Source of the DNA: a virus
Direction: 5' to 3' (one strand)
Length of the DNA stretch: 34,075 nt
IMG/VR virus record: IMGVR_UViG_3300001419_000023
Span: 1-34,075 of that record
The notes below the pieces were generated by a model. It made no database searches. It was not told the DNA's origin and worked only from the letters and a program-made list of their open reading frames with translations. A program made the position numbers and the translations under genes. Position 1 is the first letter of the stretch, and every line of letters begins with the position of its first letter. Below are positions 14,340 through 14,503 of the stretch, piece by piece.

Positions 14340-14503
14340 TTTTACTACACTACACTACAATCCAACTCCAACTTAACTTAACCCAACTCCAACTTAACTT
14401 CCAACTTAACCAAACCTTAACTCCTCCTTAATCACCCCAAATTCCTCAATACTCTCTCAATACACAATTATACTTATTCACATCTTATTCACATATTTTT
14501 AAA
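14340..14503 (+). other. 164-nt tract without any G on the plus strand
   Basis: The whole stretch contains only A, C and T on the plus strand, and no coding frame. It includes an 18-base direct repeat, CCAACTCCAACTTAACTT, at 14362-14379 and 14383-14400, with a third partial copy CCAACTTAAC at 14401-14410. Extending to 14526 adds only one G. It runs straight into the DnaA-box-like cluster. A strand that cannot form G-C or G-U pairs would stay unstructured when single-stranded, which suits a replication-start or SSB/helicase loading zone. Confidence 0.75.

Follow-up and report, generated by a model that had tools for sequence, protein, structure and literature searches.

A 164-nucleotide G-free strand next to a cluster of putative DnaA boxes in an N4-like phage

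One strand of a non-coding region in IMG/VR virus record IMGVR_UViG_3300001419_000023 (positions 1 to 34,075; these 34,075 nucleotides are referred to below as the window) does not contain a single G over 164 nucleotides, which raises the question of what such a strand could be for. The reading that we favour, and to which we would give about half of our confidence, is that the tract forms the 5′ flank of an oriC-like, DnaA-binding module in an N4-like phage probably infecting Campylobacterota. The elements of this putative module are as follows.

14340 to 14503, + strand: G-free tract, 164 nt, C 32%, predicted single-strand fold 0 kcal/mol
14474 to 14482, + strand: putative DnaA box 1, TTATTCACA, perfect match
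14485 to 14493, + strand: putative DnaA box 2, TTATTCACA, 11 bp after box 1
14505 to 14513, + strand: putative DnaA box 3, TTATTCACA, 20 bp after box 2
14516 to 14524, + strand: putative DnaA box 4, TTATTCACA, 11 bp after box 3
14440 to 14600, no strand: least stable duplex zone, candidate unwinding element, in about the lowest 1-1.5% of 80-bp windows

The tract is made up of 58 A, 53 C, 0 G and 53 T on the + strand, and position 14504 is the sole G between its start and 14526, exactly as counted in the initial annotation. Elsewhere in the window G-free runs do not exceed 54 nt. The naive chance of a 164-nt run is about 1e-9 per window, and in 60 simulations with each of three Markov models (orders 1, 3 and 5) the longest run lacking either base reached 65-75 nt; occurrence by chance is therefore very improbable, as had been claimed. 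No G-free run of at least 80 nt was found on either strand of eight named N4-like genomes (AD45-P1, N4, LIT1, DSS3phi2, A5, R22Y, JWDelta and PhAPEC5). A deamination footprint was rejected, since G is not merely lowered: C is also raised, to 32%. A protein-coding cause was rejected as well: the region is non-coding, as annotated, save for one 49-aa open reading frame (ORF) with a TTG start which overlaps part of the tract and is missing in L027, the nearest relative (TerL 82%). The predicted folding energy of 0 kcal/mol agrees with the view that a strand lacking G cannot fold on itself.

The four perfect boxes occupy 51 bp (14474-14524), all on the + strand, and no other match to TTATNCACA is present in the window. 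Their common orientation and helical phasing, with 11/20/11 bp spacing, are those of an oriC or basal unwinding system (BUS). When about 85,000 genomes were scanned for the exact pair TTATTCACATNTTATTCACAT, 24 stretches matched, at least 11 of which adjoin a dnaA homologue. Eight of ten large ORFs neighbouring such stretches are DnaA by Pfam, and the other two (L074, L083) do not belong to the 11. Campylobacterota genera or Epsilonproteobacteria are named for more than half of the 24 stretches, and in this group the DnaA-box core is TTCAC, with T at position 5 (PMC5043019). In Nitratiruptor oriC1 (L082) TTCAC cores recur in 11-bp steps (-19, -8, 3, 14, 25), passing from degenerate to perfect, and the 5′ side is phage-like in being C-rich and G-poor (8 G and 34 C in 120 nt). 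These sequence comparisons indicate that the four TTATTCACA repeats are very probably real DnaA boxes, that is, putative binding sites, and that a Campylobacterota host may fairly be assumed. The origin-like array beside which the tract had been placed is thus an array of DnaA boxes of the Campylobacterota type. Another locus adjoining dnaA, in a Campylobacteraceae metagenome-assembled genome (L081, about 1612-1885), has about 14 DnaA-box matches spaced exactly 21 bp apart.

The tract itself has an internal order, made up of the following repeats.

14345 to 14359, + strand: run of three CTACA pentamers, variable in length
14362 to 14411, + strand: 18-bp direct repeat CCAACTCCAACTTAACTT with 21-nt spacing; full copies at 14362-14379 and 14383-14400, partial copy at 14401-14411
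14405 to 14466, + strand: degenerate, directional repeats phased at 11 nt (CTTAACCAAAC, CTTAACTCCTC, CTTAATCACCC ... CTCAATACTCT, CTCAATACACA)

The direct repeat was located in the copy number given in the initial annotation, two full copies and one partial. With the boxes left out, a lag of 11 nt is one of the top signals in the tract (p 0.002; p-values come from 400-500 shuffles across 31-35 lags and are uncorrected across segments). Two islands, CTTAACCAAACCTTAA and AAATTCCTCAAYACTCWCTCAA, of 16-22 nt are kept in L027 nearly letter for letter. The same phage is represented by a near-identical contig of 100.65 kb, G001, which appears complete since its ends overlap. Its tract is 159 nt long, and the loss of one CTACA unit (two instead of three) is the sole difference over 13.9 kb; the exact length of the tract is therefore not constrained, and slippage occurs.

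Are the boxes and the composition kept together in other phages? That the present phage is N4-like, as first annotated, is borne out by the full genome, which codes for the virion RNA polymerase (vRNAP, 2549 aa) and TerL of this group together with an RNAPII-like gene, a family A DNA polymerase and primase/helicase pieces. In viral contigs 17 stretches matched TTATTCACATNTTATTCACAT, and three of ten records tested are N4-like by both vRNAP and TerL, namely G010 (TerL 64%), G011 (47%) and G007 (41%; vRNAP match E 2.5e-62). The arrangement in G007 and G010 is that of the window: the pair is found to the right of a leftward TerL gene, in + orientation, with rightward early genes downstream of it; in G010 an RNAPII-like gene follows 2.2 kb downstream of the pair. 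In G007 a G-free, C-rich tract of 75 nt, quite different in sequence from that of the window, ends 17 nt 5′ of the box pair. It is the longest G-free run and the spot of greatest C-over-G excess in the 8.3-kb locus, and none of 300 Markov runs reached 75 nt. Three N4-like phages including the present one thus have boxes at this locus, and two of the three have a G-free tract.

Among non-overlapping intergenic windows of 75 nt the homologous place ranks first of 70 by C minus G in G001, second and third of 65 in the genome of L027 and first of 66 in G002; the tract region of L027 has 7% G. Because the homologous places rank at the top in relatives, a C-rich, G-poor composition would seem to be a property of the locus which outlives its sequence. 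In L030 (1215-1330, − strand) a G-free stretch of 50 nt is followed by paired TGTAC repeats at 11/19/11/19, and in AD45-P1 neither a G-free tract nor DnaA boxes are found at the locus. The test proposed in the initial annotation, whether G-freeness persists while the bases change, gave a graded answer: a remote relative has 0 G in 75 nt, the closer ones are C-rich and not G-free, and the property is absent from AD45. Strict G-freeness is, on these comparisons, best regarded as the extreme of a partly conserved C-rich, G-poor property.

The periodicity of the relatives could also be explained if the tract and the boxes were one iteron array for a phage protein, the ribbon-helix-helix (RHH) or ParB-like product of a neighbouring gene, and the likeness to DnaA boxes were incidental. 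The tract would then be G-free because the repeat unit is G-free. L027, L030 and the G002 region also show the 11-nt lag, with units other than DnaA boxes, and the paired geometry of L030 (11/19/11/19) is shared with the window (11/20/11). RHH proteins, ParR for one, recognise short iterons set in arrays (PMC5016525). Of the features of a ParR/parC-type centromere, the 11-nt phasing and an adjoining 59-aa RHH-like ORF (a weak match) are present and no motor gene was seen. However, the exact pair is linked to dnaA loci by the genome-wide scan, and the identical paired pattern stands at the same place in three N4-like phages. We consider this explanation improbable; it was demoted to a rival because the scan tied the unit to dnaA.

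The composition by itself could be accounted for if the + strand were transcribed and the tract were a G-less, unstructured leader RNA, acting either as a Rho utilisation (rut) site at which termination is regulated or as an open leader for the loading of single-stranded DNA-binding protein (SSB) or ribosomes. The signature of a rut site, C in great excess over G in about 130 unstructured nucleotides, is matched by a 150-nt stretch of the tract with 51 C and 0 G and a fold of 0 kcal/mol; RhoTermPredict asks for 78 nt with C/G>1 (PMC6407284), which the tract exceeds. The persistence of C over G at the locus while the sequence changes is likewise in favour. On the other hand, a rut site needs no islands of 16-22 nt conserved almost letter for letter, the better promoter-like sites face away from the tract or are downstream of it, and DnaA boxes abutting the tract in two distant phages are left unexplained. 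A role as leader RNA is in our view quite unlikely.

Returning to the oriC-like module, we analyzed where the duplex would open. By stability, the 80-bp windows that start at 14440, 14480 and 14520 rank in the lowest 0.8-1.5%, as expected of the unstable element of an oriC or BUS. The initial annotation had considered the tract suited to strand opening, which was not confirmed: its duplex stability is mid-range. Since the boxes and the AT-rich DNA that comes after them are least stable and the body of the tract is average, the easily opened place is beside the tract and not the tract. DnaA-trios are defined as 3′-GAT-5′ units, at least three with a central A, within 16 nt of a box. A series TTT-ATT-TTT-ATC begins 9 nt past box 4 by eye, and fits a loose trio pattern (PMC8287927) as AT-rich DNA easily does.

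On the favoured reading host DnaA would bind the four TTATTCACA boxes, head to tail and about one helical turn apart inside each pair, and might extend from there over the tract with its degenerate 11-nt repeats. Opening would follow in the AT-rich zone (14440-14600), and the single G-free strand, being unable to fold, would offer open DNA for SSB and for loading of helicase or primase. We infer that DNA synthesis would start at this module and that the G-free strand would act in single-stranded form; boxes at the same place in distant relatives, one of which has a G-free stretch as well, suggest copying or tapping of the host's replication-start mechanism by these phages. The recognition trinucleotides of well-studied primases (5′-CTG, 5′-GTC, 5′-GTT) all include G, and a template without G would therefore offer no priming sites. 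Missing priming sites might, as a speculation, explain selection against G. A more far-reaching version, which we put forward tentatively and which is rather doubtful as a whole, is that a lineage of N4-like phages infecting Campylobacterota initiates replication by a mimic of the host oriC with host DnaA, the G-free strand being a conserved functional landing strip, free of folds and primase sites, that chooses the strand for the replisome.

A number of observations weigh against the module as an origin. The tract itself is not easily melted, and no CTA-type (CTA/YTR) DnaA-trio run was found after the last box. GC skew has no clean switch at the locus, and coarse 4-kb bins shift the change several kb away; skew follows gene direction, which limits its use for origin mapping. 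The boxes of G010 occur without a G-free tract, and in G011 (a 118-kb contig) four DnaA boxes at 82180-82417 adjoin the vRNAP gene and not the early region. DnaA boxes are absent at the locus in L027, L030, L011 and AD45, L027 being the nearest relative and retaining the tract islands. Finally, a rival origin is present at a distance from the tract: G001 codes for a lambda-O-like initiator (L020:14576-15238, − strand; match to phrog_678 at E 2e-8). An RHH ORF precedes the O-like gene, as do four palindromic repeats AGTGTAYTCWMTACAC with 23-bp spacing (L020:15372-15463). The initiator was absent from the other records tested, save for a weak match in G010; with its repeat array it could be the true initiator system. 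A lambda-type O origin at the tract was rejected, as the O-like gene with its own repeats is located elsewhere in the full genome.

The boxes might bind DnaA for a different purpose, either titration in the manner of datA, stopping host initiation, or control of the rightward early operon, the tract being a promoter-distal flank. The best promoter-like site is the following.

14583 to 14610, + strand: promoter-like TTGACA-16-AATAAT directed towards the early operon; such sites are no more numerous in the scan than in shuffled sequences

The boxes are 60-110 bp upstream of this site, and those of G010 are upstream of the same operon. Loci such as E. coli datA, which titrate DnaA, combine perfect boxes with degenerate ones at close spacing (PMC5835720), and this combination is what the phage array has in common with them. 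Titration or operon control would leave the G-free tract and the AT-rich zone unexplained, however; promoter calls are at chance level, and four boxes are few for titration unless the phage copy number is high. We regard this explanation as unlikely, though worth keeping in mind.

A further possibility follows from the position of the tract before the RNAPII-like gene. In the model of N4 middle transcription AT-rich DNA is melted, gp2 binds the single strand and RNAPII follows (PMC4496689), and the tract could be a single-stranded platform of this type on which a gp2-like protein recruits the RNAPII-like polymerase. But the tract is unique in its genome (rank 1 of 70), as against a series of RNAPII start sites in N4, and N4 itself has no such tract, which makes this role highly improbable.

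The locus may be compared with several known systems. Campylobacterota oriC1 and oriC2 share with it the head-to-tail TTATTCACA(T) boxes with 11-bp spacing, the TTCAC core and the adjoining AT-rich zone, and Nitratiruptor oriC1 also the C-rich, G-poor 5′ side; unlike them the phage locus has no adjoining dnaA and is G-free over 164 nt, and the CTA-type DnaA-trio run of Nitratiruptor oriC2 is missing from it. Iteron plasmid origins (P1 oriR, RK2 oriV) consist of tandem DnaA boxes, an AT-rich segment and direct repeats. Their elements are like those of the phage, whereas the order differs, no Rep gene adjoins the phage locus and its repeats are strand-biased. Phage lambda ori has O iterons and strand-biased origin DNA; the full phage genome does code for an O-like protein, but its gene and 23-bp repeats are far from the tract. 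The N4 early region, with its vRNAP promoters, belongs to the same kind of phage and has the same gene order, yet no long G-free tract. On the early strand, C-rich DNA is also found at the left ends of N4, LIT1, JWDelta and DSS3phi2; the N4 early region is at the left terminus, while here the likely terminus is 2.9 kb from the tract.

The literature searched describes N4 replication via the phage's own proteins, and no origin element of such form turned up there for N4-like phages. If the oriC-like reading is true, the group would gain a defined, testable origin from boxes kept at one position in three diverged N4-like phages, and a lytic phage would be linked to the cell-cycle initiator of its host. 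The boxes would also point to Campylobacterota as the hosts of phages that are so far represented only in metagenomes, and the strand-specific absence of G would be a clean test case for the single-strand chemistry required by an origin flank.

The tract separates leftward RHH-like and ParB-like genes from the rightward early operon with the RNAPII-like gene.

13112 to 13906, − strand: ParB-like protein, 72% identical in L027; the AD45-P1 homologue is annotated as ParB N-terminal domain
13893 to 14072, − strand: 59-aa RHH-like ORF, divergent neighbour, weak Pfam RHH_10 match
14685 to 14855, + strand: 56-aa ORF that opens the early operon; L027 has a similar one
14920 to 15243, + strand: 107-aa protein with locus-flanking homologues in L027 (53%) and G007/L057 (27%, E 2e-4)
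15262 to 15900, + strand: 212-aa protein of the early operon
15949 to 17853, + strand: putative N4 RNAPII-like RNA polymerase, weak match to N4 gp16, 34% to AD45

A search of the genome contigs for this RNAPII gave no match. A candidate left genome end is present near 11.47 kb (window 11400-11530), where G-rich DNA is followed by poly-C (CGGGGAGGTTGG...GGTACCCCCCCCCGTAG). This stretch is kept in the genome of L027; N4 and LIT1 have left ends that resemble it, and AD45 has a similar poly-C site. The physical left end is, from this resemblance, likely to be near 11.47 kb, 2.9 kb from the tract, so the tract would be internal to the genome. A genome terminus at the tract was rejected, the N4-like signature of poly-C after G-rich DNA being near 11.47 kb instead.

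A vRNAP hairpin promoter at 14321-14333 was also rejected. Such promoters have a template hairpin with a −11 purine, −10G, −8G and +1C (PMC4496689); the candidate seemed promising by eye in four phages, yet it breaks the N4 base rules, has a template-strand mismatch and the wrong loop, and folds no better than shuffled sequences. No perfect hairpin of 5 bp with a 3-nt loop was found between the tract and the operon. Short hairpins with a TTC loop (for example AATGC-TTC-GCATT), similar to the N4 P1 early promoter, occur around the homologous region of L011 (G002), near 2020, 1850 and 1150 (− strand).

In a 42.7-kb viral contig without a vRNAP or TerL match (L071, near 6151), DnaA-box pairs come before a G-free tract of 73 nt and CTA-rich DNA that resembles DnaA-trios. 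In the replication region of G001 (L020) several HNH-type endonuclease ORFs are found among the primase/helicase pieces, which suggests that the primase/helicase genes are split by homing endonucleases. Other long runs lacking one base were considered as like cases and rejected: the 72-nt C-free run of L031 is coding, and the C-free runs on the + strand of the window (128 nt at 28000, for example) fall in Gly/Asp-rich repeat ORFs. Two such ORFs, at 25794-26081 and 27908-28126, have similar N-termini and C-free + strand runs of up to 128 nt.
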